A stretch of 64,000 nt of DNA from Chloroflexota bacterium (GTDB lineage Bacteria; Chloroflexota; Anaerolineae; Anaerolineales; Villigracilaceae), in contig JACRBJ010000027.1 of the NCBI GenBank assembly GCA_016234555.1, positions 1 to 64,000 on the forward strand, in the 5' to 3' direction. Under the pieces are notes generated by a model. The model saw only the letters and a program-made list of their open reading frames with translations, was not told the origin of the DNA and did no database searches. This document shows positions 1 through 50,999 of the stretch, one piece after another. The position numbers were made by a program, and so were the translations under genes. Numbering within the stretch: the first letter of the stretch is position 1; every line of letters starts with the position of its first letter.

Positions 1-1
1 C

Positions 2-121
2 TTCGGATGGTTAGGTCGTTACCGCCGTCTGGCTCGCGATTACGAGCACACCACATTATCCAGCGAAAGTATGGTGTATATCGCCAGCTCGCGACGTATG
101 CTGAAAATGCTTCCAACATGA
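2..121 (+). pseudogene. C-terminal end of an IS5-family (DDE) transposase, cut by the window edge
   Basis: Frame 2 reads FGWLGRYRRLARDYEHTTLSSESMVYIASSRRMLKMLPT*, the typical C-terminus of IS5/IS427-type transposases (RYRRLA-DYE ... SE-MIY-A--R-ML-RL). Confidence 0.8.
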
Positions 122-128
122 CTATTAA

Positions 129-314
129 ATCGCTCTCTTAGCGCACGCATCAGCCTATGAGGGCATAATTAAAGAATGGGATTTAAATAACTTTTCTCAC
201 CATACCCCACTGATCAGGTATCCGAGTAAAGAATTCCCGCAATATGTATCCACACATTATCATAGGCTAAAGAAGCTTCAAGCCAAACTCCAAGGTAGAA
301 AACTGGAGTTGTAA
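129..314 (+). pseudogene. Orphan coding-like fragment without a start codon
   Basis: Open frame IALLAHASAYEGIIKEWDLNNFSHHTPLIRYPSKEFPQYVSTHYHRLKKLQAKLQGRKLEL* ends at TAA 312-314; composition is protein-like but there is no ATG and the family is unknown. Confidence 0.3.
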
Positions 315-397
315 AATACAGAGTTATCTATGCCAAACTTTTATAATCGGTTTTTTTCTTATCGTAATTGATGTTGTATGGTATCTATTTTGAACAA

Positions 398-467
398 CCC
401 GAACAAACAGCGACACATCGTGGCGCACCTCGATAACGTCCAAGCGCGGTTGGCGTCGCTGCGGGAG
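398..467 (+). pseudogene. Remnant of type I restriction-modification specificity subunit (HsdS) C-terminal conserved helix, first half
   Basis: PEQ (398-406), one extra base (a407), then QRHIVAHLDNVQARLASLRE (408-467); matches the HsdS conserved signature PEQRRIVAYLD-LQA-V--L. Confidence 0.7.
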
Positions 468-517
468 CCCTCTCTGATCATCGAAATCAACGGAAACTTT
501 TCAGTGCACAAATACGA

Positions 518-1918
518 CTATTCAGTTCTTTCCTCAAACAAGCCGAGTTGTATCTTCGGAATTTCTGGCTTCTCTTCTACATCATCCCAAGTTAAATTGG
601 GATATTTGTTTTCCAAGAATTGAACAATAGCTATGTTCGTGAATTCAAATAATGGAGCAGGCAAATTATCTAATTTATACCATCCCCAGCCAACGTGTTT
701 GTCCGGTTCCTTTGTCTCAACTTCTCCCGTCCATGCCTCTACCAAAACACCTACCGACATAATTTGCTTGCTTCGCATCGATTCCTGCCATGTGTAATAA
801 AGAGAAACAGGTTTCGATTTCTTTAATATCAACCCGGTTTCCTCCAGTAATTCTCGTTTTGCGCACTGCTCTAAGCTCTCCCCCTCGTTTTGTTTTCCAC
901 CAGGAGCAGCAAAGTTCCCCTCAGCTACGCCATTAATTTTTCGCTGGCTTAATAGCATTTCCCTTTCACCCTGCACAGTCCTAATTACTAAAAGATTACA
1001 AGCTTTATTATATTTATTCTTTGTTGAATTTGATTTCGGCGTATCGCTACCTATGTAGATAGATGTTTGAGAGGAATTTTCGTCTTTAGACAACCAGTTG
1101 GGGCGATTCAATCTGAAAAATATCTTTTCTCCAGAAATCATATTAGTAAAAACATCAATTGGAAATTTGACCTCTTCAGTAAACCCTTTCCTTGCTCTTC
1201 GAGCAAAGCTTTTATACTCTTCGTCGTACTTGGTTTTCAAAATTCGATATTGTTCCAAATCCTCGGTCCGTCGGAATTTTTGACTCCATTGCTCTTTCCA
1301 TTCTTCAAATTTTTCTTTGTCCTTTTCAGTCAAAAGATCTTTTTCGGACCAAGGTAAGGAAATAGTGATGGTCGGTCTATATGCATCGATAGACCACTTT
1401 ATTAAATTACCTTTGTCATCAAACTCCCCTTCACTAATTTTCTCTACAAAAGGCAAAGCAAAGTTCGGGTATTTGCCACTCAAAACAAGTGAAATCAATA
1501 CTTTTACAACTAACTCTGGATAAATTTCCTCGTACTTATCTCTAAAATGCCAAAAAGTTCTTGAGTTAAGAATAGGCTTGCTGTCATCAGTTGACAATTC
1601 TAGCTTTTTCAGAGAGTGCCCAATCCGGAAACCACACAATTTCTGGAGATTAATTCGATCAAGAATTATTCTCTCAAGGGTACGTTCACTTGGCGAGATA
1701 TTCACCAAATAAGGCAAAGCCAATGCCTTAAAGTAGCTCGAAATTGGGACGCCATCATATTCACGATCTATCGCACCATCCAAAATCACACAACGCCAGT
1801 CAGTTAAATCGTATAGATCGGTAAGCCAATTAATAACCTTGTCAGACAAAATGTTATCTGGCAAAACATGAGAGTCAATCTCATCATAAGGAAATAGTGA
1901 AAGGTTATCTTGACTCAT
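518..1918 (-). CDS. Nudix hydrolase with an N-terminal transposase DUF772/InsH-N-like domain
   Basis: Nudix box GGKQNEGESLEQCAKRELLEETGL; N-terminal part has ISPSERTLERIILDRINLQKLCGFRIG...SRTFWHFRDKY resembling DUF772 (S-REL-E-L--NL-LRWFLG-----D-STLSRFR). Confidence 0.8.
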   Translation of the reverse strand: MSQDNLSLFPYDEIDSHVLPDNILSDKVINWLTDLYDLTDWRCVILDGAIDREYDGVPISSYFKALALPYLVNISPSERTLERIILDRINLQKLCGFRIGHSLKKLELSTDDSKPILNSRTFWHFRDKYEEIYPELVVKVLISLVLSGKYPNFALPFVEKISEGEFDDKGNLIKWSIDAYRPTITISLPWSEKDLLTEKDKEKFEEWKEQWSQKFRRTEDLEQYRILKTKYDEEYKSFARRARKGFTEEVKFPIDVFTNMISGEKIFFRLNRPNWLSKDENSSQTSIYIGSDTPKSNSTKNKYNKACNLLVIRTVQGEREMLLSQRKINGVAEGNFAAPGGKQNEGESLEQCAKRELLEETGLILKKSKPVSLYYTWQESMRSKQIMSVGVLVEAWTGEVETKEPDKHVGWGWYKLDNLPAPLFEFTNIAIVQFLENKYPNLTWDDVEEKPEIPKIQLGLFEERTE

Positions 1919-1932
1919 TTTTACGAATAGTC

Positions 1933-3069
1933 TCAGGTGCTTTCTCTTATGCCTTTTAAGAAAAGAACTACACCAACTGCTGCACCGACAATACTGGCTA
2001 TATGATCTGCATTATCTAGCCAAGGTAATTGTACATTAAAAAGGGTGCTGATGTTGATTATAAAAAGAGCAATTAATAGAGTAATTAATATTGCAAAAAA
2101 ATAAAAGATGGCTTTTCCTAGATCTAGTCTGTTTGGAATATCCGAGAAAACCTTAATGTCAAAAATGGATTCTGCTTCGTACCGCTGCGCCCTTTTCACT
2201 ACGACAGGAATTGGAAGACCTGTCAGTTCTTCCAAAACTCTTGGTGTGCTCTCCATAATCGATGCGCCACGAACATTTCTCTGTTGTATTTCCTCCAAAG
2301 AAAACCATTTGAATGTTTTACTTGTAAAATCGCCGCCCATTTGAATTTCCTTCTTAAGGTGTTCGTTTAGATCCAATTTAAGCTTACTAACCACTCGTGT
2401 TTCAATTGTGTAGAATGTAAGGGCCCCTTGTGATTTAGAAATTGATATGTATTCAATTGCGGGCGGGTTAATATTATTATCAATTTCGTAATCAATTGGT
2501 TCCAAATGTAATCGTTTTTTCATAGCCTTATGAACTAGTTCGTCGGTGGAATTTTCTCCTCTCATCCCGATTCCAATCAAATGGTATTCATTCCAACCCG
2601 GATGAAAAATATGCAAGAACACATCTTGATGTTTCCAGTTTTTTATTTGCCTGCCCTTAATAATTATATTTATCATCGTTCGATTGTGAATGGGAATTTC
2701 CGCTCCTTGCGACTCACTTCTAATCATCTCAAGGGATTTTGTAAATTCCCTAAAGTATCTTTTCTTTTCCTCGTCCCTCAAATTATGCAATACGGGGAAT
2801 GATAAATCTAAGCGTTCTTTCAGTGCACTAATGGCTAAGTGTGGATATTTCGAACTAATAATTACGTCTTCATCATCGCCAATTTCTACAAACCCGAGTA
2901 TGGCAAGAATCGAAAGAATACTAAGCACAACATCTTTCCCAGCTCCAGATACCTGGACGAGGTCATCTATTTTTTTTCTCTTTGGAAATTGGTCTACCTC
3001 GCCATCTTTTAGGGCGACTAGCACTTTAGAAATCAAAGGAAACAATGGGCTTAGAGATGAATTCAGCAT
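1933..3069 (-). CDS. Uncharacterised protein: winged-helix-like N-terminus, degenerate Nudix-like middle, two C-terminal TM helices
   Basis: 378-aa ORF; DDLVQVSGAGKDVVLSILSILAILGFVEI (wHTH-like); DVFLHIFHPGWNEYHLIGIGMRGE...HKAMKKRLHLEP...KWFSLEEIQQR (Nudix-like without catalytic box); hydrophobic AIFYFFAILITLLIALFII and IASIVGAAVGVVLFLKGI. Confidence 0.7.
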   Translation of the reverse strand: MLNSSLSPLFPLISKVLVALKDGEVDQFPKRKKIDDLVQVSGAGKDVVLSILSILAILGFVEIGDDEDVIISSKYPHLAISALKERLDLSFPVLHNLRDEEKKRYFREFTKSLEMIRSESQGAEIPIHNRTMINIIIKGRQIKNWKHQDVFLHIFHPGWNEYHLIGIGMRGENSTDELVHKAMKKRLHLEPIDYEIDNNINPPAIEYISISKSQGALTFYTIETRVVSKLKLDLNEHLKKEIQMGGDFTSKTFKWFSLEEIQQRNVRGASIMESTPRVLEELTGLPIPVVVKRAQRYEAESIFDIKVFSDIPNRLDLGKAIFYFFAILITLLIALFIINISTLFNVQLPWLDNADHIASIVGAAVGVVLFLKGIREST

Positions 3070-3088
3070 AAAAGCACCAACTATACGT

Positions 3089-4282
3089 TCATGTGTATTT
3101 TGAGATTTTTTTTATTGTTTCTTCCGCAACTTGACTAAGTGTACCGGAGGCATCAACAATTTCAAACGGAAAATCAAAGTAGTGCGATTTTACTATATCC
3201 AAATAAAGGGGGCGGAACTTCTTTAGGCTTTCAAATTTATCAAAAGGTGTCATTTTTGTTCCTCTGGCTAAAACTCGTTGCAAACAAATGTCCTCATTCG
3301 CATCGTAGAGAACAATGATGTCAGGTCTCGGAACAAAACTATGCACAAAATTGACAAGCAATCTTTCAAATTCGTTTTCACACTGATACACTAACATACT
3401 AATATAACTTCTAACAGATATAACAACCTTTCCCTTTTTCAAATCCTGAATTACTTTACCTTGAACTTGATTGTATCTATCCCCGATTATTGAATACAAA
3501 CGAAACATAGGGGAGCTTTCGGACAAATCTACTTTCGCCGAAGATTCTATATAAGCCTCAAAATCCCGATAAATCTGGGAGGGCTCTTTAATAATAGACA
3601 CCTCATACCCCTTATTTTCATAATACTCCCTAATAAGTTCTGCCTGACTATCCTTACCCGTTCCACTATTTCCTTCAAGGATAATGTATTTCCCAGTATA
3701 ACCACGGTCCATTTTTGGTTCCTGTGTAAGGAGAGCCGAAAACAAGTAAATGAATTTATTTTCCTTCTCTGCTAACCTAATTCCTTGAGAAGTAATTAAT
3801 TTTGAAAGTCTCTCTTTGAAAAGAGGATCGATTTTTGAGAACTCATCTATATTCAAATTCTCATATTCATTTCGCATAAAAAATCTAGCGAGTCCTGCAG
3901 CGCCTAGACTAGCTAAGATAAAAGCATCATTGATAATTTTCGCTTCTATCGAATCGGACAAATGGTCAACCTGAGGATTTAAATTATTCAAGACAGCCAC
4001 TGCTTTTTCTTGAGGAAAACCAATCTCCTGGAAAATACCCTTTATTTTTACTGGATCGAAATTATATACACTTGAAAATTCGAAATATTTCACCCCCGAC
4101 ATTCTCAAAATGGACAAGGCGCATATAATATCAATATCTCCCCCATACTCTTCATGAAGCAGACTGGCGTATTTTAGAATTCGAACGCGGAGCCATAATT
4201 CATGATCAGCATTTGTATCTAAATTCGAAACAGCGTCTAATAGAGGCCTTTCAAAGCTTGAGTTTGTTATATTGTCTGCCAA
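3089..4282 (-). CDS. Degenerate HD-like domain fused to a thymidylate kinase-like domain
   Basis: P-loop YIILEGNSGTGKDSQAELIREYYENKGYEV, DRYNQVQ, RPDIIVLYD and RVLARG (TMK family); N-terminal EAKIINDAFILASLGAAGLARFF resembles YpgQ-type HD proteins (DADRLDALGAIGIAR) without the acidic residues. Confidence 0.8.
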   Translation of the reverse strand: MADNITNSSFERPLLDAVSNLDTNADHELWLRVRILKYASLLHEEYGGDIDIICALSILRMSGVKYFEFSSVYNFDPVKIKGIFQEIGFPQEKAVAVLNNLNPQVDHLSDSIEAKIINDAFILASLGAAGLARFFMRNEYENLNIDEFSKIDPLFKERLSKLITSQGIRLAEKENKFIYLFSALLTQEPKMDRGYTGKYIILEGNSGTGKDSQAELIREYYENKGYEVSIIKEPSQIYRDFEAYIESSAKVDLSESSPMFRLYSIIGDRYNQVQGKVIQDLKKGKVVISVRSYISMLVYQCENEFERLLVNFVHSFVPRPDIIVLYDANEDICLQRVLARGTKMTPFDKFESLKKFRPLYLDIVKSHYFDFPFEIVDASGTLSQVAEETIKKISKYT

Positions 4283-4312
4283 ATGAACACCCTAGGATTT
4301 TGGTTTTAAGAA

Positions 4313-4335
4313 GTGTTAATAAAATTGCTTAACAC
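4313..4335. promoter_or_regulatory. 7-bp perfect inverted repeat upstream of the three-gene cassette
   Basis: GTGTTAA-N9-TTAACAC, about 30 nt upstream of the ATG at 4282 (-). Confidence 0.4.
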
Positions 4336-4361
4336 ATTATACACGATACGACCGCTACGGA

Positions 4362-4421
4362 AGAGAATTGTCCGCGCTGCTGCCGTCCGTGCTGGATAGG
4401 GTGCTCAAGAAAAATCTATGA
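4362..4421 (+). pseudogene. Remnant of HsdS C-terminal end, second half
   Basis: RELSALLPSVLDRVLKKNL* matches the canonical HsdS tail EELSALLPSVLDRAFKGEL; preceded by TTATEE in another frame (4350-4365, gaagagaattg). Confidence 0.7.
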
Positions 4422-12709: not shown

Positions 12710-13861
12710 ATGGTTTATCTCATCATCGAATTCCTCGACGAACTGGTCTTCGGTATTGGCGAGACAGCTTGGCCCCTCATCCGTCGGGACATCCACCTGA
12801 CGTACACGCAGATCGGCTTGCTGATGAGTCTTCCGGGAATCATCGCCGCCTTCATCGAACCATTCCTCGGCATCCTCGGTGACGTGTGGAAGCGACGCCT
12901 GCTCATCCTCGGCGGCGGCGTGTTCTTCGTCATCTCACTTGCCCTGACCGCTGTCAGCAAAAGCTTTTTGCCACTACTGATTTCCTTCATCATTTTCTTC
13001 CCAGCCTCGGGCGCATTCGTCAGTCTCTCGCAAGCCACGCTTATGGACTCCGCTCCCGACCGCCATGCCCAAAACATGGCACGCTGGACTTCTGCTGGCT
13101 CGCTGGGAAATGTCCTCGGTCCGCTCCTGCTTGGTTTGTTTGTTTACTTCGGGTTGGGCTGGCGCGGGACCTATGCCATGCTTGCCGTAGTTTCGGCGGT
13201 ATGTCTGCTGGCGGCGTCTCGCCTTGTCCCACCCGACGACAGTTCCATCTCTCACCTGCCAAGTTTCAAAAGTGTTTTCGACGGGTTTCGTTCAGCAGTA
13301 TCCGCGCTCAAACGCCGCGAGGTCTGGCGTTGGCTGATCCTGCTCGAATTTTCCGACCTGATGCTCGACGTTTTTCTCGGCTTCCTTGCGCTCTATTTTG
13401 TGGATGTGGTCTCCGCCACCGACACGCAGGCGGGTATTGCCGTCACCCTCTGGCTGGCGCTCGGCATGTTGACCGACCTACTCTTCATCCCTTTCATCGA
13501 CCGCCAACCCGACAGCATGAAATTTCTGCGCCGAACGGCTGCGCTCGAGTTGATTGCTTTTTCAATTTTCCTGGTGGCACCGGGTTTTATCCCCAAACTG
13601 ATTGCAATTATCTTCGTCAACATTTTCAACACAGGTTGGTATCCGATTTTGAAGGGCAGTTTGTATTCAGCCCTGCCCGGTCAAAGCGCCAGCATCATGG
13701 CGATTGAATCCGTCACCACCCCGTTGGCAAAACTCCTTCCCCTGCTCGTTGGTCTGCTCGCGGATAAATTCGGCCTGGGCGTTGCCATCTGGCTCTTGTT
13801 GCTGGGTCCGCTTGCCCTTATGATTGGATTGCCACGTCAAAAGCTGGCAATCCTCGCATGA
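12710..13861 (+). CDS. MFS transporter
   Basis: 12-TM-like ORF, GDVWKRRLLILGG loop, starts right after the GH13 stop. Confidence 0.8.
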   Translation: MVYLIIEFLDELVFGIGETAWPLIRRDIHLTYTQIGLLMSLPGIIAAFIEPFLGILGDVWKRRLLILGGGVFFVISLALTAVSKSFLPLLISFIIFFPASGAFVSLSQATLMDSAPDRHAQNMARWTSAGSLGNVLGPLLLGLFVYFGLGWRGTYAMLAVVSAVCLLAASRLVPPDDSSISHLPSFKSVFDGFRSAVSALKRREVWRWLILLEFSDLMLDVFLGFLALYFVDVVSATDTQAGIAVTLWLALGMLTDLLFIPFIDRQPDSMKFLRRTAALELIAFSIFLVAPGFIPKLIAIIFVNIFNTGWYPILKGSLYSALPGQSASIMAIESVTTPLAKLLPLLVGLLADKFGLGVAIWLLLLGPLALMIGLPRQKLAILA

Positions 13862-15153
13862 ACACTTCTATCTATCTCCACATCCCCTTCTGCAAACACC
13901 GCTGCGCCTACTGCGACTTCAACACGTACGCAGGTCAGGAAGATTCGATTCCCGCCTATGTGGATGCGCTTATCAAAGAGATCGAATTTGTTGGGCGACA
14001 GCGAGACAGCGATTCAGAGAGTCAACAAGGCAACGATTCGACTACTCGACTATATGACTATTCGACTATTCATACGATTTTCTTTGGCGGCGGGACTCCT
14101 TCCCTGCTGACCGCGCCCCAGTTTGATTCCATTCTCCGAGCCTTAACCTCCGCCTTTGCCTTGACCGCTGACGCGGAGATCAGCATCGAAGCCAACCCCG
14201 GCACGCTCAACCTCCAAAAGTTGGAAGACCTTCGCAAAACTGGCATCAACCGCATCAGCCTCGGCGTGCAGTCTGCCAACACTGAAGAGTTGCGGATGCT
14301 TGAACGTATCCACGATTTTTTCACGGTCATCCAGTCTGTTACCGAGGCCAGAAAAGCGGGCTTCGATAACCTCAACCTCGACCTGATTTACGGTTTGCCC
14401 GAACAATCACTCGCCTCATGGAAAACCACTCTCTCTCGGATCATCGACCTTCACCCTGAACACATCTCCGCCTATGCCCTAACCCTCGAACATGGCACGC
14501 CCTTTGGGCGTTGGTCAACCAAAGGTCTGCTCCCCATCCCCGACCCCGACCTCGCCGCCGAGATGTATGAGTACGCGGAGGAGTTTCTAGAAGCAAATGG
14601 GTATGCGCATTATGAAATTTCGAACTGGGCAAGAGATGTCGAGGAAGGTCGAAAGTCGAAAGTCGAAAGTCCGACCTTTGACCTTCGACTTTCGACTCCT
14701 TCGTTTACCTGCCGCCACAACCTTCAATACTGGCATTCCCTCCCCTACCTTGCCTTCGGTGCGGGTGCACACGGATATGTGGACGGCTACCGTTATTCAA
14801 ACGTTCTGCGTATCAAAACTTATATTGACCGCCTTACCAATTCCCAATCTACCAATTTACCATTCCCCCTTTCTCCTGCAACTGTCAACCATCACAAGCA
14901 AACCAGACAGGATGATATTTCGGATTACATGATCAACAACCTGAGATTGACACAGGCTGGGGTTGCTGAATCAGATTTCAGGGAGAGGTTTGGGGTTGGG
15001 CTTTTGGATGTCTATCAAAAGGAAATCGAGGAGTTAATCCACCTGGGGTTGCTGGAATCAAAAACCTCCGAGGTCTTAAAGACCTCGGAGGTTTACAGGC
15101 TCACCAAACGCGGCAGGCTGCTGGGAAATCAAGTATTTGTAAAATTTGTTTAA
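13858..15153 (+). CDS. hemW: HemW-like radical SAM protein (heme chaperone / oxygen-independent CPO-like)
   Basis: MNTSIYLHIPFCKHRCAYCDFNTYAG (CxxxCxxC), TIFFGGGTPSLL, GVQSANTEELRMLERIHD, NLDLIYGLPEQSLASW. Confidence 0.95.
   Translation: MNTSIYLHIPFCKHRCAYCDFNTYAGQEDSIPAYVDALIKEIEFVGRQRDSDSESQQGNDSTTRLYDYSTIHTIFFGGGTPSLLTAPQFDSILRALTSAFALTADAEISIEANPGTLNLQKLEDLRKTGINRISLGVQSANTEELRMLERIHDFFTVIQSVTEARKAGFDNLNLDLIYGLPEQSLASWKTTLSRIIDLHPEHISAYALTLEHGTPFGRWSTKGLLPIPDPDLAAEMYEYAEEFLEANGYAHYEISNWARDVEEGRKSKVESPTFDLRLSTPSFTCRHNLQYWHSLPYLAFGAGAHGYVDGYRYSNVLRIKTYIDRLTNSQSTNLPFPLSPATVNHHKQTRQDDISDYMINNLRLTQAGVAESDFRERFGVGLLDVYQKEIEELIHLGLLESKTSEVLKTSEVYRLTKRGRLLGNQVFVKFV
13995..14074. repeat. Ten near-tandem octamers inside hemW
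   Basis: GCGACAGC GAGACAGC GATTCAGA GAGTCAAC AAGGCAAC GATTCGAC TACTCGAC TATATGAC TATTCGAC TATTCATA. Confidence 0.7.
14648..14699. repeat. Heptamer repeat with inverted half inside hemW
   Basis: GTCGAAA x3 + GTC, then CGACCTT TGACCTT CGACTTT CGACTCC. Confidence 0.85.
14834..14865. repeat. Octamer near-tandem repeat inside hemW
   Basis: TTACCAAT TCCCAATC TACCAATT TACCATTC. Confidence 0.6.
15062..15094. repeat. Perfect 15-bp-arm palindrome inside hemW, encodes KTSEVLKTSEVY
   Basis: AAACCTCCGAGGTCT-TAA-AGACCTCGGAGGTTT. Confidence 0.95.
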
Positions 15154-15222: not shown

Positions 15223-18093
15223 TTACTTCTTCTTCGCCACTTTCTTAACCGCCTTCTTCACAACCTTCTTAGCAGCGGGTTTCTTCGCAGCAACCTTCTT
15301 GACAACCTTCTTCGCAGCGGGCTTCTTTGCCGCAGCAGCCTTGGGGGCGGCGGGCTTGACAGCGTGGTCGAGAGCCGCATGGGCAGCTGCAAGGCGGGCA
15401 ATCGGCACACGGAAGGGCGAGCAGGAAACGTAGTTGTTGCCGATCATGAAGCACCATTCCACAGAGTTCGGGTCGCCGCCGTGTTCGCCGCAGATACCCA
15501 CTTCGAGGTTCGGGCGGGTGGCGCGTCCGTCGTTGATCGCCATCTGCATCAGCTTGCCGACGCCAGCGCGGTCAATTGTCTGGAAGGGATTGGTGGTGAG
15601 AATACCCTGTTCCTGGTAGGTGATGAGGAAGTTGCGTTCGGCATCATCGCGGGAATAGCCGTAGGTCATCTGGGTCAGGTCATTGGTACCAAAGGAGAAG
15701 AACTCAGCTTTGGTGGCGATTTCGCCAGCAGTGGCAGCGGCGCGCGGGATTTCGATCATCGTGCCGAATTTGTATTCGAACTTGATGTTCTTCTCAGCCA
15801 TCACAGCAGAGGCGATGCGCTCGAGGCGGGGTTGAATCCACTCGAGTTCCTTGACGGTGCCGGTGAGCGGGATCATCACTTCGGGCTTGACAGTAATTCC
15901 GCGCAGGGTGCAGTCGGCAGCGGCTTCCATGATCGCGCGGACTTGCATTTCCACGATTTCGGGCATGACAATGCTCAGGCGGACGCCGCGCAGACCCATC
16001 ATCGGGTTGGATTCGTGCATCCCCTTGATGGATTCGAGCAGGCTTTCCTTTGCTGCCAGTCCTTCGGTCTGACCCTTCACCTGCATCTCAATCACTTCGC
16101 GCAGGAGTTTTTCTTCGTCGGGCATGAACTCATGAAGCGGCGGATCGATCAGACGGATGATGACGGGATAGCCGTCCATCGCCTCGAAGAGACCGTCGAA
16201 GTCCTTGCGCTGGGAGGGCAGGAGTTTGTTGAGGGCGGCAGTGCGACCTTCGCTGGTTTCGGAGAGGATCATGTCCTGCACGATGGGCAGGCGTTCGGGT
16301 TCAAAGAACATGTGCTCGGTGCGGCAGAGACCGATACCCACGGCTCCATAGGAGCGGGCGCGCTGGGCGTCCTTGGGGTAATCGGCGTTCGCCCAAACTT
16401 GCAGACCGCGCATCGGCTTGCCGTTGGAGTCTACGCGGATGCCCTTGCGTGCGGAAACTTCGTCTGCCCAGGTGAGCAGGGTCATCAGTTCGGTCTGTTC
16501 TTCGAGCGAGGGAGTGGTCATCGGGATTTGACCGATGAAGACCTTGCCTGTAGTGCCGTCGACGGAAATCCATTCGCCTTCCTTGACGAGCTTGTCACCG
16601 ACCTGCATCTCGCGTTTTTCGAGATCAATCTTGATGGAGGAAGCGCCGACCACGCAGGGGATACCAAACTGGCGGGCGACCACTGCCGCATGGGAGGTGG
16701 CGCCACCTTCGCTGGTGAGCACGCCTTGGGCGGCGATCATGCCGTGAACGTCATCGGGCTTGGTGAAGGGGCGGACCATGACAGTCTTCTGTCCCTGTTC
16801 CTTCGCCATCTTTTCGGTGAGGTCGGCATCGAAATACACCTGACCAACAGCCGCGCCGGGGGAGGCGTTCACGCCCTTGGCGAGGAACTTGCCTTCCTTC
16901 TCGGCCTGGTTCATCGCAGCGGCGTCATATTGCGGGTGGAGCAGGGCATCGACCTGTTCGGGGGTGACGCGCTTGAGGGCTTCTTCCCTGGTGATGAGTT
17001 TTTCATTCGCCATATCCACAGCCATCTTGACGGCGGCTTTGGCGGTGCGCTTGCCAATACGGGTCTGGAGCATCCACAGTTTGCCGCGCTCGATGGTGAA
17101 CTCCACGTCCTGCATATCATGGTAGTGTTTTTCGAGTTTGGCGGTGATGTCCATGAACTGCTTGTAGGCGGCGGGCATCTGGTCGTTGAGGTGGACAATC
17201 GGGTCGGCATTACGGATGCCAGCCACCACGTCTTCGCCCTGGGCATTGATGAGGTACTCGCCCATCATCAACTTTTCGCCGGTGGAGGGATTGCGGGTGA
17301 ACGCCACGCCGGTGGCGGAGTCATCGCCCATGTTGCCGAACGCCATCGTGCAGATGTTGACAGCGGTGCCGAGGGTGTGCGAAATCTTTTCCTTGTTGCG
17401 GTAGTCAACAGCGCGTTTGCCGTTCCAGGACTTGAACACGGCTTCGGTCGCCAGTTCCAACTGCTTGAACGGGTCCTGGGGGAAGTCTTCGCCGGTCTTG
17501 CCTTTGTATGCTGCCTTGAACTTCTCGACGATTGCCTTCCAGTCCTCGGCGGTCATCTCGGTGTCAGTCTTGTAGCCCTTTTCGGCTTTGTACGCGGCGA
17601 GGGGATGCTCGAAGGGCTCATCGCCGGTTTCCATCACCACCGAGCCGAACATTTCGATCAGGCGGCGATAGGAGTCATACACGAAGCGCGGGTTGCCCGT
17701 CGCCTTGACCATGCCCTCGGCGACCTTGTCGGTCAGACCGATGTTGAGGATGGTGTCCATCATGCCGGGCATGGAGAATTTGGCGCCGGAACGGCAGGAA
17801 ACAAGCAGGGGGTTGGCGGGGTCGCCGAATTTCTTGCCAGTTGCCTTTTCGATGGCTTTAAGCGCCTTCAGTTCCTGGTCCCACATGCCGGCGGGGAATT
17901 TACCAGCCGTCTGGTAGGCGTTACAGGCTTCGGTGGTCACCGTAAAGAACGGAGGAACCGGCACACCCGCGCGTGTCATATCCATCAAACCCGCGCCCTT
18001 ACCGCCCACGATGGACTTTACGCCATCCCATGAGCCGCCAGCGAGTTTTTCAACTGCCTTGACCTCGCTGAAAAGATAAACCCATTGTTTCAT
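15223..18093 (-). CDS. ppdK: Pyruvate, phosphate dikinase with Lys/Ala-rich C-terminal tail
   Basis: MKQWVYLFSEVKAVEKLAGGSWDGVKSIVGGKGAGLMDM; GGATSHAAVVARQFGIPCVVG; GICGEHGGDPNSVEWC. Confidence 0.95.
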   Translation of the reverse strand: MKQWVYLFSEVKAVEKLAGGSWDGVKSIVGGKGAGLMDMTRAGVPVPPFFTVTTEACNAYQTAGKFPAGMWDQELKALKAIEKATGKKFGDPANPLLVSCRSGAKFSMPGMMDTILNIGLTDKVAEGMVKATGNPRFVYDSYRRLIEMFGSVVMETGDEPFEHPLAAYKAEKGYKTDTEMTAEDWKAIVEKFKAAYKGKTGEDFPQDPFKQLELATEAVFKSWNGKRAVDYRNKEKISHTLGTAVNICTMAFGNMGDDSATGVAFTRNPSTGEKLMMGEYLINAQGEDVVAGIRNADPIVHLNDQMPAAYKQFMDITAKLEKHYHDMQDVEFTIERGKLWMLQTRIGKRTAKAAVKMAVDMANEKLITREEALKRVTPEQVDALLHPQYDAAAMNQAEKEGKFLAKGVNASPGAAVGQVYFDADLTEKMAKEQGQKTVMVRPFTKPDDVHGMIAAQGVLTSEGGATSHAAVVARQFGIPCVVGASSIKIDLEKREMQVGDKLVKEGEWISVDGTTGKVFIGQIPMTTPSLEEQTELMTLLTWADEVSARKGIRVDSNGKPMRGLQVWANADYPKDAQRARSYGAVGIGLCRTEHMFFEPERLPIVQDMILSETSEGRTAALNKLLPSQRKDFDGLFEAMDGYPVIIRLIDPPLHEFMPDEEKLLREVIEMQVKGQTEGLAAKESLLESIKGMHESNPMMGLRGVRLSIVMPEIVEMQVRAIMEAAADCTLRGITVKPEVMIPLTGTVKELEWIQPRLERIASAVMAEKNIKFEYKFGTMIEIPRAAATAGEIATKAEFFSFGTNDLTQMTYGYSRDDAERNFLITYQEQGILTTNPFQTIDRAGVGKLMQMAINDGRATRPNLEVGICGEHGGDPNSVEWCFMIGNNYVSCSPFRVPIARLAAAHAALDHAVKPAAPKAAAAKKPAAKKVVKKVAAKKPAAKKVVKKAVKKVAKKK

Positions 18094-29460: not shown

Positions 29461-29462
29461 AA

Positions 29463-29483
29463 GGATGAAGGATGAAGGATGAA
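29463..29483. repeat. Heptamer tandem repeat GGATGAA x3
   Basis: GGATGAAGGATGAAGGATGAA directly upstream of the TIR-FGE start. Confidence 0.8.
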
Positions 29484-31517: not shown

Positions 31518-32846
31518 TTATATCGTCAACACCACTTTTGTCCCTTTCCCCTTTTCATCCTTCGACGCGCTCAGGACAGGGCTTTTCACTTTCAACTTTC
31601 CACCCGCCAACTCGGCGCGTTCGCGCATCCCAACCAGCCCGAAGTGACCTGTGGACTCCCTGCCGTGCGGGTCGAAGCCGATGCCGTCATCTTCGATAGT
31701 GAGTGTGGTGACGTGACCGTCGTTTTCGAGGCGGATGCTGAAACTTTTGGCTTGCGAATGTTTGACGACGTTTTCGATGGATTCCTGCGCCACGCGGTAG
31801 ATGGTTTGCTCCACGTCCGGGCTGAGAGAAGGCATGGGATTTTTCAGGTCAACTGTCAGCTTGAGGTGGGAGCGAACGGCGGCAGATTCAGCCGCGCGCT
31901 GAATCGCCAGTCCCAAGCCCATATCCTCCAGCGCATTCGAGCGCAGGGCTTTGAGCGCACGGCGGGTTTCGTCCACGCCGATTCGGGTCGCATCCAAAGA
32001 TTTATCCAACAGCTCGCGGGATTTGTTCTGGTCGATGTCGAAATAGGCTTTAGCGGTTTCGAGCGAGACAGAGATGGCGGTGAGCGAATGGGCAAGCGTA
32101 TCGTGGAGTTCGCGGGCGAGACGGTTGCGCTCGCGGCTGACGGTGAGTTGCTCCAGGGTGGAGGCATAGTGCGTGAGGTTGGCGTTCGCTTCGCGGAGAG
32201 ATTCGCTCTGTCCGCGCAGACGGGCGACCAGCAGGCTGATGAAAACTCCCACCGCGATGAAACTGATCGCGCGGATGACGGCGATGAAAAAGAAAACGAT
32301 AACATTTGAACGCGCCATCGGGCTGAAATAGATCAGGCTCAATTCCAGCACAGTGGCGGCGACGCTGAACAGGATGACGTGCGACAGTTCATATTCCCAA
32401 GCCACCAGAACCAGCGCGACGAAAAGGATGGGCAGTTGACGAAGCGCCATGCCCTCGGCGTTGGCAAGCGGACCATTTGGAAAGCGCGGCGTGACAAAGA
32501 CATTGATAAGAATTGGCGCGGTGGAAATGGCAAGCAGGAGCAACGGATAAAAAAACTTCCCCAATTTTCTTTGAGCTTCTTCCCAATGGGCAAGCGCAAG
32601 AAAGGCAAACGCCACCAATCCGTTGGCGGCGTAGAAAAGATAAACGGGTCGGAAGGGGTCGCGGGGAAGGCGCGGCGGGATGGGCTGTCCTTGAATCCCC
32701 TGTTGCAGGGGCGGAATTTGCGCGAGCGGGAGTCCCATCTGGGTGTACAACACGAAATCCATCAGCGCCATGGCGACGAGAAAACCGATCCAAATCCATG
32801 CGGCGATGCGGAGGAAGCGGGTTGAGTCCTGGGTGGGCATGTGCAA
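31518..32846 (-). CDS. Sensor histidine kinase (NarX/DesK-type HisKA_3)
   Basis: RNRLARELHDTLAHSLTAISVSLETAK; TIEDDGIGFDP; GLVGMRERAELAGGKL; N-terminal TM segments. Confidence 0.92.
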   Translation of the reverse strand: MHMPTQDSTRFLRIAAWIWIGFLVAMALMDFVLYTQMGLPLAQIPPLQQGIQGQPIPPRLPRDPFRPVYLFYAANGLVAFAFLALAHWEEAQRKLGKFFYPLLLLAISTAPILINVFVTPRFPNGPLANAEGMALRQLPILFVALVLVAWEYELSHVILFSVAATVLELSLIYFSPMARSNVIVFFFIAVIRAISFIAVGVFISLLVARLRGQSESLREANANLTHYASTLEQLTVSRERNRLARELHDTLAHSLTAISVSLETAKAYFDIDQNKSRELLDKSLDATRIGVDETRRALKALRSNALEDMGLGLAIQRAAESAAVRSHLKLTVDLKNPMPSLSPDVEQTIYRVAQESIENVVKHSQAKSFSIRLENDGHVTTLTIEDDGIGFDPHGRESTGHFGLVGMRERAELAGGKLKVKSPVLSASKDEKGKGTKVVLTI

Positions 32847-47836: not shown

Positions 47837-49240
47837 ATGATAAACTTGCCGCCAGTACACAAACTGGAACGCGCAATGAAACAATCCCTGCAAACCGCAT
47901 TCAAAACCTGGCTCGGACTCACCCTGCTGGTCATCGCCAGCCTGGTCGTGATTTATCTCCGCAACGGTATGACGGGACTGGAGCTTTTCATCCAGAGCTG
48001 GCCCCTGTCCAACCTGGCTGTGACGTTGGCTTCCACCGCCTTCGTCTGGGTGTTGACGGGCGTTCTGCTTTCCCTGCTTGCAAATCAAAAAATCCACAAG
48101 GGGAATCTCTGGCTTACGGCGGGATTCTTCCTCGTCATGTTCATCTATCTCGGCATCCTGCGCGAGCGCTTCCGCTACGGCGACTATCACTACTACCTCG
48201 ACGCCGCCGCCGCCCTTGCCAAGGGACAACCCCTGCCCGACAGTTATCTCTACCTGCCGCTTTGGGCGTCTCTGCTCCAGTTCCTCGTCCCGCTTGGTGA
48301 CCAGGGCTTCATGATCATCCTGTGGATTGTCAATGTCCTCGCCCTCGCTGCTTTGTACTTCCTGCTTGTTACCGTCCTCCAACGCTACGGTTTTTCAGGT
48401 CGCCTTGCGGTTGTCATCACCATCCTCTTCCTGCTCATCAACACCCCGCTCATGCGGACTTTGGGATTTATCCAGGTCAATCTGCTGACGTTGGACTTGA
48501 TTCTGCTCAGCCTCGTCATTTATCCCAAACAGGAATTCCTATCCGCGCTGGCGCTGGCGTTTGCCGTCCACGTGAAGACGTCCCCCGCCGTGCTGGTTCT
48601 CGCCTTCCTGCTGGAGTTCAACTGGCGCTGGCTGTTTTGGTTCGCGGTTAGTTTCCTCGCCATCGGACTTTTCCCCGTCGTCACAAACGGTGTTTCGCTC
48701 TACCAGCAATTCCTGACCAACACCTTCCTGCTGACCCAAATCCCCGACACGAATTTCCACGAGACCTCCTTTGACTCCTTCCTGCGTTTTCTCAATCCCT
48801 TCCTTGGGATTCAAATCGCACAGACCCGTCTCATAGCGCTTGCCGCAAAAGCCTTGCTCCTGTTTGCCTCTCTCGCGGTGATGGCGCAATCAGTCAGCAG
48901 TCAATCGTTCAACAAAGAGAACCGCCTGCTGAACGCCGTCCCGCCGCTGTTCGTGCTGATGACCCTCGCCTCCCCCATCGTCTGGGACCATCACGGGCTT
49001 TTCACCGCCCTTGCTTTTCTGCTCATGCTCAAGCGCATCCACTCCCCGTCCGCGTGGGTTTGGTTTGGCTTCGCCTACTTCCTCGAATTCGTCCTGCCCT
49101 CCTTCGACTTCTTCCCCTGGTCGTACGGTCGCCTCATCGCGCCGCTCATCGTCCTCTGGCTGATGTGGCGCACCGCGAAGAACGACGAATCGCCCTTCAT
49201 CGCGTCGGCAAATGGCTGGCTTGCAAAAATTGCCTCTTGA
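47837..49240 (+). CDS. GT87/DUF2029-like membrane mannosyltransferase
   Basis: RFRYGDYHYYLDAAAALAKGQPLPDSYLYLPLWASLLQFLVPLG; YPKQEFLSALALAFAVHVKTSPAVLVLAFLLEFNWRWL. Confidence 0.82.
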   Translation: MINLPPVHKLERAMKQSLQTAFKTWLGLTLLVIASLVVIYLRNGMTGLELFIQSWPLSNLAVTLASTAFVWVLTGVLLSLLANQKIHKGNLWLTAGFFLVMFIYLGILRERFRYGDYHYYLDAAAALAKGQPLPDSYLYLPLWASLLQFLVPLGDQGFMIILWIVNVLALAALYFLLVTVLQRYGFSGRLAVVITILFLLINTPLMRTLGFIQVNLLTLDLILLSLVIYPKQEFLSALALAFAVHVKTSPAVLVLAFLLEFNWRWLFWFAVSFLAIGLFPVVTNGVSLYQQFLTNTFLLTQIPDTNFHETSFDSFLRFLNPFLGIQIAQTRLIALAAKALLLFASLAVMAQSVSSQSFNKENRLLNAVPPLFVLMTLASPIVWDHHGLFTALAFLLMLKRIHSPSAWVWFGFAYFLEFVLPSFDFFPWSYGRLIAPLIVLWLMWRTAKNDESPFIASANGWLAKIAS

Positions 49241-49241
49241 A

Positions 49242-50999
49242 ATGAAGAAGTATCTTTCCACCGTTGTCCTTGCCACCATCCTGCTTGCGGGCTTGCTGAC
49301 CTTCAACCAATACGGCGACAGTTGGGATGACCGCTCGCTGCAAAAGTACGCCGCCAAATCCCTCAACGCCTACATCACCTTTCCGCAGCAAGGCAAAGTC
49401 AACATCGAACGAGAAGGCCTCGGCTACTACGGTCCCTCCTTCGTGATGACGGTTACCGCACTCTCCAACGCGCTCGACTTCCTCCCCCTCTCCAATCCCG
49501 ACCTGCGCCACCTGCTCTACTTCCTCACCTACTTTGCAGGTGTCGTCGCCTTTCACTCGCTTGCCAAACGCTGGCTAAGCGACCTCCCCGCCCTTGGCGC
49601 CACCGTCCTCTACGCCACCCAACCCCTGCTCTGGGGACACGCCTTCATCAACCCCAAAGACACGCCCTTTCTTTCCCTTTTTTTGATCTCCCTTGCTTTG
49701 GGATTTAATTTTTTTGACAAATTGCCCGCGGAATCTGGTCCACGCCCAAGCCGAATCCAACTACTTTTGACCGCGCTTTGGGTTGGTTCTGTTTTCTCGT
49801 TGTTTGTCTTCACCGAAAGTTTTTACAACCTCATCGCCAGCCTTGTCCAATCCGCGCATTCTGGGAACGCCAACGTCGTCTCGCTGATCGCCTCCGACAT
49901 CCTCACTGCCAATCCAGAGATTTACATCCAAAAATATTTCGTCCTCTTCCTCCGCGCCCGCGCCATCTTCTTCATCCTGTTTACCTGTCTACTTGTTTAC
50001 CTGTACCGCCCGTATTCTGCATTCTTCACTCTCCCTTCTGCATTTCTTCTCGGCTTCACCACCTCCACCCGAATCCTCGGACCCTTTGCCGGCGTCCTCG
50101 TCGCCTGCTACGCCTTGCGGACAAAAGGCAAACGCGCCATTCCATCCCTCATTGCCTACTCCCTCCTCTCCCTCATCTCCACCTATCTCACCTGGCCCTA
50201 CTTGTGGCTGAATCCTGTCGGGCATTTCATCGAAAGTTTCAAGGAAATGTCCCTCTACCCCTGGAAGGGAGTTGTCCTCTTCAACGGCACCAACTACCAA
50301 ATTACCAATTTACCAACGGCATATCTCCCTGTTCTGCTTGCCATCCAGTTGACCGAACCCGTCTGGGCGTTGTCCCTGGTTGGATGGTGGGTATCTATTC
50401 TTCGTAGGGGCGAAGCACGCTTCGCCCATTTGATGGAATCATCCCTGCTATGGTTCGTCCTCCCGTTGACCGCGTTCATCGTCCTGAAAATCGCCCTGTA
50501 CGATAACTTCCGCCAGATCCTCTTCATCCTGCCGCCGATATTTTTAATGGCTGGAGTTGCATTCGAGGCGGTAAAGCAAGTAAAATGGCAAGCCGCGTTG
50601 ATTGGGTTGTGTCTCATTCCAAACCTGCTTGGCATTGTGTCGCTGCATCCTTACGAGTATATTTATTACAACCGTTTCATCGGCGGCGTGGACGGCGCTG
50701 TGGGACGCTTCGAGCTGGATTACTGGGTCACGTCCTACCGCGAGGCGGCGGAGTATATCAACGGCGTGGCTTCGCCGAATGCCAGCATTTGGGTGGAGGG
50801 ACCCGCCAACCTGTTCACCCCGTTCACGCGCGAGGACTTGAAAATCTACTCGCCCAACGAAGCGGAGCGCGCCGAAAGTTATGAATACATCGTGGCGGCA
50901 ACCCGCTACAACTTCGACAAGACCTCCTATCCCGATGCGGAGATTGTATATAAAATCAAGCGCGGCGATGCCGTGCTGACGGTCATCAAAAAACCGTAA
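49242..50999 (+). CDS. GT39-like membrane glycosyltransferase
   Basis: FNQYGDSWDDRSLQKYAAKSL; ATVLYATQPLLWGHAFINPKDTPFLSLFLISL; TM-rich; start set at MKKYLS (TGAAATG). Confidence 0.82.
   Translation: MKKYLSTVVLATILLAGLLTFNQYGDSWDDRSLQKYAAKSLNAYITFPQQGKVNIEREGLGYYGPSFVMTVTALSNALDFLPLSNPDLRHLLYFLTYFAGVVAFHSLAKRWLSDLPALGATVLYATQPLLWGHAFINPKDTPFLSLFLISLALGFNFFDKLPAESGPRPSRIQLLLTALWVGSVFSLFVFTESFYNLIASLVQSAHSGNANVVSLIASDILTANPEIYIQKYFVLFLRARAIFFILFTCLLVYLYRPYSAFFTLPSAFLLGFTTSTRILGPFAGVLVACYALRTKGKRAIPSLIAYSLLSLISTYLTWPYLWLNPVGHFIESFKEMSLYPWKGVVLFNGTNYQITNLPTAYLPVLLAIQLTEPVWALSLVGWWVSILRRGEARFAHLMESSLLWFVLPLTAFIVLKIALYDNFRQILFILPPIFLMAGVAFEAVKQVKWQAALIGLCLIPNLLGIVSLHPYEYIYYNRFIGGVDGAVGRFELDYWVTSYREAAEYINGVASPNASIWVEGPANLFTPFTREDLKIYSPNEAERAESYEYIVAATRYNFDKTSYPDAEIVYKIKRGDAVLTVIKKP
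49978..50042. repeat. Octamer then heptamer near-tandem repeats inside the GT39 gene
   Basis: TGTTTACC TGTCTACT TGTTTACC TGTACC; TTCTGCA TTCTTCA CTCTCCC TTCTGCA. Confidence 0.65.
50408..50427. repeat. GTAGGGGCG-type palindrome inside a CDS
   Basis: GTAGGGGCGAAGC-AC-GCTTCGCCC; 9-bp arms 50408-50416/50419-50427. Confidence 0.75.

Follow-up and report, generated by a model that had tools for sequence, protein, structure and literature searches.

The gene under study, hemW, codes for the radical SAM heme chaperone and lies at positions 13858-15153 (+) of the window, which is the whole stretch of 64,000 nucleotides that was analysed. Its reading frame of 431 aa is intact and gave the only match in the 5.8 Mb genome, no second copy being found there. 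The product scores 291.9 bits against TIGR00539 (cut-off 205.4), carries the radical SAM motif CxxxCxxC as C12, C16 and C19, and contains HNxxYW, which we take to be a marker of HemW, in the form HNLQYW, with H287, N288, Y291 and W292 invariant across 48 HemW sequences. Compared to the relative L036, substitutions were distributed over the three codon positions as 36/19/120, and this third-position bias indicates that hemW is under purifying selection. With a single copy, an open frame and this substitution pattern, the gene is no pseudogene. Within the family, 93 of 99 genomes gave a HemW match, and the solved structure closest by sequence is that of coproporphyrinogen III oxidase (1olt).

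The neighbouring gene at 15223-18093 (-) looks, from its sequence alone, like one for pyruvate phosphate dikinase, and its product has a Lys/Ala-rich, histone-like C-terminal tail, KPAAKKVVKKVAAKKPAAKKVVKK, for which a 42-nt tandem repeat at 15252-15334 codes. At the start of the window, positions 1-4400 are almost devoid of coding sequence according to the ad hoc gene caller, with one ORF of 58 aa, and no RNA family was detected there by Rfam at the gathering threshold; over the whole window the same search returned only one tRNA.

Four in-frame repeat insertions of different types had been predicted within hemW. The first falls in the loop formed by residues 47-72 (13996-14073, +), which exceeds the shortest orthologues by approximately 16 aa. 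The octamers claimed at 13995-14074 are indeed present, in degenerate form and as two types, one AGTCAGCG-like at 13999-14024 and the other ACTATTCG-like at 14033-14073. Identity at lag 8 is 49/72, a value attained in approximately 9 of 100,000 genome windows, and TRF recognised only 4.5 copies at 78%. At site 2 (14643-14698, +), GTCGAAA heptamers add 21 aa with respect to orthologues with an empty loop. Here the array with an inverted half, expected at 14648-14699, was recovered as a direct half at 14648-14671 and an inverted half at 14673-14696, the arms being 88% complementary and TRF giving a period of 7 with 95% matches. For site 3 (14834-14865, +), the proposal of inserted ACCAATT-type octamers held only in part. 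A degenerate ACCAATT-like repeat can be seen, with a weak lag-8 identity of 15/24 that is met by 0.11% of genome windows and closely followed by lag 7 at 14. The loop measures 15 aa, as compared to 14-15 aa in repeat-free orthologues, so that nothing has been inserted and site 3 is repeat-like sequence within a pre-existing loop. Site 4 (15062-15094, +) is the perfect palindrome that had been described, a double palindrome of 33 nt with two 16-nt arms flanking 1 nt; it encodes KTSEVLKTSEV, adds 7 aa and represents a REPIN-like dispersed element. HemW alignments showed that all segments stay in frame between conserved blocks, and the four insertions are thus reduced to three length-adding segments, at sites 1, 2 and 4.

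The segments were mapped on an AlphaFold2 model of HemW obtained from 48 sequences, with a mean pLDDT of 84.9, as the original prediction had suggested. Site 1 is located within a low-confidence stretch (block means of 57-60), and residues 264-276 of site 2 have a pLDDT below 50 and are predicted to be disordered. Site 3 is modelled as coil, and site 4 as the turn joining strands 399-403 and 411-415. The positions of the four sites in the model fit tolerated surface loops.

Orthologues were examined in an additional set of 80 named HemW loci, nearly all from Anaerolineales or unplaced Chloroflexi MAGs; 79 HemW relatives entered the comparison of loop families with the tree. In all relatives it is mainly these four loops that vary in length. 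The shortest loops at sites 1-4 have approximately 14, 6, 14 and 6 aa, versus 31, 27, 15 and 13 aa in the hemW of the window. The alignment gave a divided answer to the question whether orthologues share these segments: the four loops are common to the orthologues, yet they are filled with different repeat families. Repeat-free orthologues exist, and many orthologues have the empty loop. At site 2 alone the relatives carry AAGGATG, GTCGAAA, GTGGACG-type, GAATGCA-type and AACGTTG-type repeats. A repeat-family classifier was positive in 30/79, 46/79 and 38/79 HemWs at sites 1, 2 and 3, respectively, against a background of 13/790 conserved 72-nt pieces and 0.5-1.8% of shuffled loops. With the loops left out of the HemW tree, the minimum number of family-label changes at these sites was 28, 40 and 30, as compared to 28.0, 41.7 and 33.9 after shuffling of the labels; families in loops 1-3 are replaced so fast that almost no memory of them is kept in the tree. 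Site 4 is the only one with some tree memory, its palindrome label requiring 17 changes versus 26.4 after shuffling. The turnover is also evident between close relatives. L046 and L057 are 95% identical in conserved residues, and site 2 is occupied in the one (26 aa) and empty in the other (6 aa), while in L085 and L097, with 96% identity, a GTCGAAA-type array is swapped for an AAGGATG-type one. Loop 2 of the hemW of L104 holds another palindrome, CCTGACAGGTCTCAAAGACCTTTCAGG, and loop 4 is thus not the only one with a palindrome.

The palindrome of site 4 is dispersed, with seven exact copies in the genome and none of the reversed control pattern, and it occurs in 13 of the 21 genomes of the genus. 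Among palindromes with arms of at least 12 nt, 79 of 85 are intergenic; the site 4 copy lies inside hemW. Palindromes of the same family at G000:C4 17187-17219 and 17827-17859 flank a Y1_Tnp gene (17442-17777, locus L287), whose coding sequence itself contains one palindrome half-site (C4:17593). The sole family match of this transposase is NF047646 (REP-associated tyrosine transposase), with 57.4 bits, under the cut-off of 80. Other Y1 genes in the genus are flanked by other palindrome families; the GACTTCCGAAGTC variant, which is found in some HemWs, flanks the Y1 gene at G239:C59. A GACTTCCGAAGTC-type palindrome was also observed inside that Y1 transposase match (locus L299, record 3869-3901). 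No GTAG or CGTC tag adjoins 15062-15094. In the 15 HemWs with the 13-aa form, the two arms covary strongly, with 29 double-changed cells versus a shuffled mean of 10.4, and none of the seven double-changed pairs showed a one-sided or G-U intermediate. This suggests replacement at the DNA level or hairpin-templated copying of the arms instead of slow RNA compensation.

Genome-wide statistics were obtained on 856 kb, window included, of the 5.8 Mb, with the ad hoc gene caller. An unbiased scan of this sample revealed 15 period-7 arrays, 11 of them within called genes, while there were none in shuffled sequence and none at periods 4, 5, 9, 10 or 13. Among tandem repeats here heptamers prevail, even though their length is not divisible by three. 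The 15 arrays belong to about 7 families, out of more than 1000 possible heptamer classes. When the sample was searched with 14 families, allowing at most 2 mismatches in 18, 41 genic places in 30 of 723 genes (approximately 4%) and 43 intergenic places were found; reversed units gave 7 places in all. With a coding fraction of 0.85, arrays are denser per base between genes. Three further places in the window illustrate the range: an intergenic AAGGATG array at 29461-29483 (+), of the family that fills hemW site 2 in relatives, a CACTTTC-family match at 31582-31604 (-) near the C-terminus of the gene at 31518-32846 (-), and a GAATGCA/GAATGAA-family match at 50014-50032 (+) inside the gene at 49212-50999 (+). 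Array-bearing genes include mutS, mutS2, mutL, dnaE, copA, cca and that of a GFO/IDH oxidoreductase. The notion that hemW tolerates and accumulates repeats therefore stands as far as in-frame tolerance is concerned, but hemW is not special in this respect, since about 30 of the 723 called genes carry arrays. Like HemW, three MutS2 loops switch families among congeners of approximately 78-85% identity. In cca, coding for CCA nucleotidyltransferase, an insertion was ruled out because the place is equal in length in all congeners aligned, and some arrays thus replace sequence instead of adding to it.

Enrichment of 11-mers in the genome sample was observed for sites 2 and 4 and was absent for sites 1 and 3, for which reason dispersal of the octamers does not follow from that test; matches to the octamer families do occur elsewhere in the sample. 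Samples of 400 kb from two genomes from elsewhere in the phylum contained no genic heptamer arrays, and a few were present in the congener G008. Exact AAGGATG arrays were detected in 15 of 151 genomes, belonging to this family and two distant Chloroflexota families, with more than 100 matches in some. This distribution is patchy: G116, G124, G132 and G182, from the two distant families, have 78 to 116 exact matches per genome, and most of the phylum has none. Searches of open-access literature gave no report of such in-gene repeats in Anaerolineales.

As neither 7 nor 8 has a factor in common with 3, any array of such units reads as the same cyclic peptide of 7 or 8 aa in all three frames of a strand. 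If one frame is free of stops, all three are, and the array can enter in any phase. Among the genic families with one stop-free strand, that orientation was always the one read, 22:0 with three places counted twice, although this is no independent proof of translation, since being within a called ORF already forces the array to be open; in families open on both strands the orientation was balanced (13:16). Judging by open frames and conservation, the loops would be translated, and they would probably also be harmless. The family found at hemW site 2 is related to what each genome contains elsewhere. Carriers of AAGGATG at this site have 71, 51, 9 and 3 copies elsewhere, versus a median of about 2 (p 0.009), and GTCGAAA likewise tracks the genome's own copies (p 0.014), both values coming from a small test on 30 genomes, uncorrected for relatedness. 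This match to the pool makes copying from repeats of the same genome more likely than growth that is purely local.

The best reading of the hemW segments is that disordered loops tolerate two kinds of sequence, short tandem repeats of STRR-like type and a palindrome that is REPIN-like. Our preferred account, to which we assign a probability of roughly 0.65, is that members of a heptamer and octamer pool are copied into tolerant places, protein loops among them, with the REPIN-like palindrome added at loop 4. Short tandem repeat families with units of 7 or 8 nt, often arranged with an inverted half behind the direct one, would make up the pool of the genome, and arrays would repeatedly be copied into, lost from or exchanged at tolerant places, including surface loops of coding genes. 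Inside a gene, an array would survive only if the net change in length is a multiple of three and the strand that is read is free of stops. Loops 1-3 of HemW would be three such places, and loop 4 would hold a distinct element, a REPIN-like double palindrome probably mobilised by a REP-type (Y1/HUH) transposase of the genus. Heptamers may be copied by microhomology template switching or short-tract conversion. No mobiliser for them was found, and arrays that leave the length unchanged, as at site 3 and in cca, are not accounted for by simple insertion. The phenomenon is real and family-wide in these uncultured Chloroflexota, with hemW as one good example; the movement of the heptamers is the weakest point of the account.

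Several known systems resemble these repeats. In cyanobacterial STRR heptamers, and in GGGGA(C/T)T and GGGAATC of Nostoc and Xanthomonas (PMC4692102), the units are also of 7 nt and form several families of degenerate, dispersed tandem arrays, some with inverted halves, all of which we found here; approximately one third of one such family in Nostoc lies within genes (PMC4692102). The present units are different, however, approximately half of the detected copies are genic, core repair genes included, and at a given loop one family is exchanged for another between close relatives. The segments had been likened to Rickettsia palindromic elements, each family of which consists of discrete elements approximately 150 bp long that encode a conserved peptide (Ogata et al. 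2000, reviewed in PMC10969869). The likeness holds in effect, given that repeats are inserted in frame in unrelated coding genes and have related copies elsewhere in the genome. It fails for the elements as such, since here there are variable-length arrays of 7- and 8-nt units, with neither a fixed size nor a common peptide and with length, phase and boundaries varying in the HemW loops, next to a separate 33-nt palindrome linked to a REP-type transposase. Site 4 is similar to the REPIN/RAYT system (PMC3116915): its inverted double palindrome is dispersed and is also found on either side of a Y1 transposase gene. It differs in the missing GTAG/CGTC tag, in a transposase below the NCBIfam RAYT cut-off and in having a copy inside coding sequence, an extragenic location being expected of REPINs. 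RAYT-like genes with untagged inverted repeats on both sides have been described, as have intragenic GTAG/CGTC REPs, also in replication and repair genes, and TIRtrons (PMC3733652). The in-ORF tandem repeats of Borgs, like ours, evolve fast and create disordered protein segments, but their unit lengths are all divisible by three (PMC9879509), versus 7 and 8 here.

Among the other explanations, arrays could have grown in place from chance seeds by replication slippage and hairpin-templated misreplication, without any movement between loci, the recurrence of the same families being due to heptamers that are more prone to slippage or remain free of stops. The over-representation of heptamers among longer repeats in many bacteria, for which polymerase-contact slippage has been proposed (PMC4692102), is in line with this, the inverted halves fit template switching, and the arrays without change in length fit in-place change. 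Yet growth from chance seeds leaves the restriction to about 7 families, the agreement between the hemW family and the one amplified in the same genome, and complete family swaps at high flank identity poorly explained, and we regard local slippage alone as possible but unlikely. We also hold it unlikely that an active process overwrites variable loops from the heptamer pool, so that the loops of HemW, MutS2, MutL and DnaE are rewritten cassette-like in every species; if this were true, units of 7 or 8 nt, being frame-independent, would make the rewriting survivable.

The arrays might also be selected for a function, either as DNA or RNA sites (binding, hairpins) or as protein loops tuning HemW and the repair enzymes. 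While the covariation of the site 4 arms and the reuse of the same loops across the family speak for selection, the loops change in sequence, family and length at the pace expected of random labels, the loop is empty in many orthologues, site 2 is predicted to be disordered, and the lack of intermediates at site 4 indicates replacement and not compensation in RNA, making this explanation very improbable. Even less credit is due to discrete mobile palindromic elements of the Rickettsia type, each one unit with its own in-frame peptide: in-frame insertion in many unrelated genes, palindromic halves and dispersal would be expected from them, but arrays of varying length and phase, without fixed peptide or boundaries, would not, and the palindrome has only 33 nt and is mostly intergenic. 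Finally, the source is a MAG with 7.7% contamination, which could point to an assembly error, or the gene might be a pseudogene or have its segments removed or bypassed before or during translation. Such an artefact is hardly conceivable when some 80 independent assemblies show the same pattern, as do single-contig genomes, e.g., G062 and G008, when the codon-position bias is strong, and when nearly all frames are open, as they would not have to be if the segments were removed. Translational bypassing was rejected, as bypassed inserts need be neither in frame nor stop-free.

In most bacteria repeats of this kind stay between genes, and tandem repeats within genes normally have units divisible by three. 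Here the units are of 7 and 8 nt, they are about equally common in core genes and in intergenic DNA, and the content of the loops is exchanged between close relatives. In these proteins, loop sequence is of little phylogenetic value and can lead alignments and trees astray. The genomes offer a natural and datable source of new disordered protein segments, in which sites can be compared in the occupied, empty and swapped state and the movement of heptamer repeats becomes directly testable.
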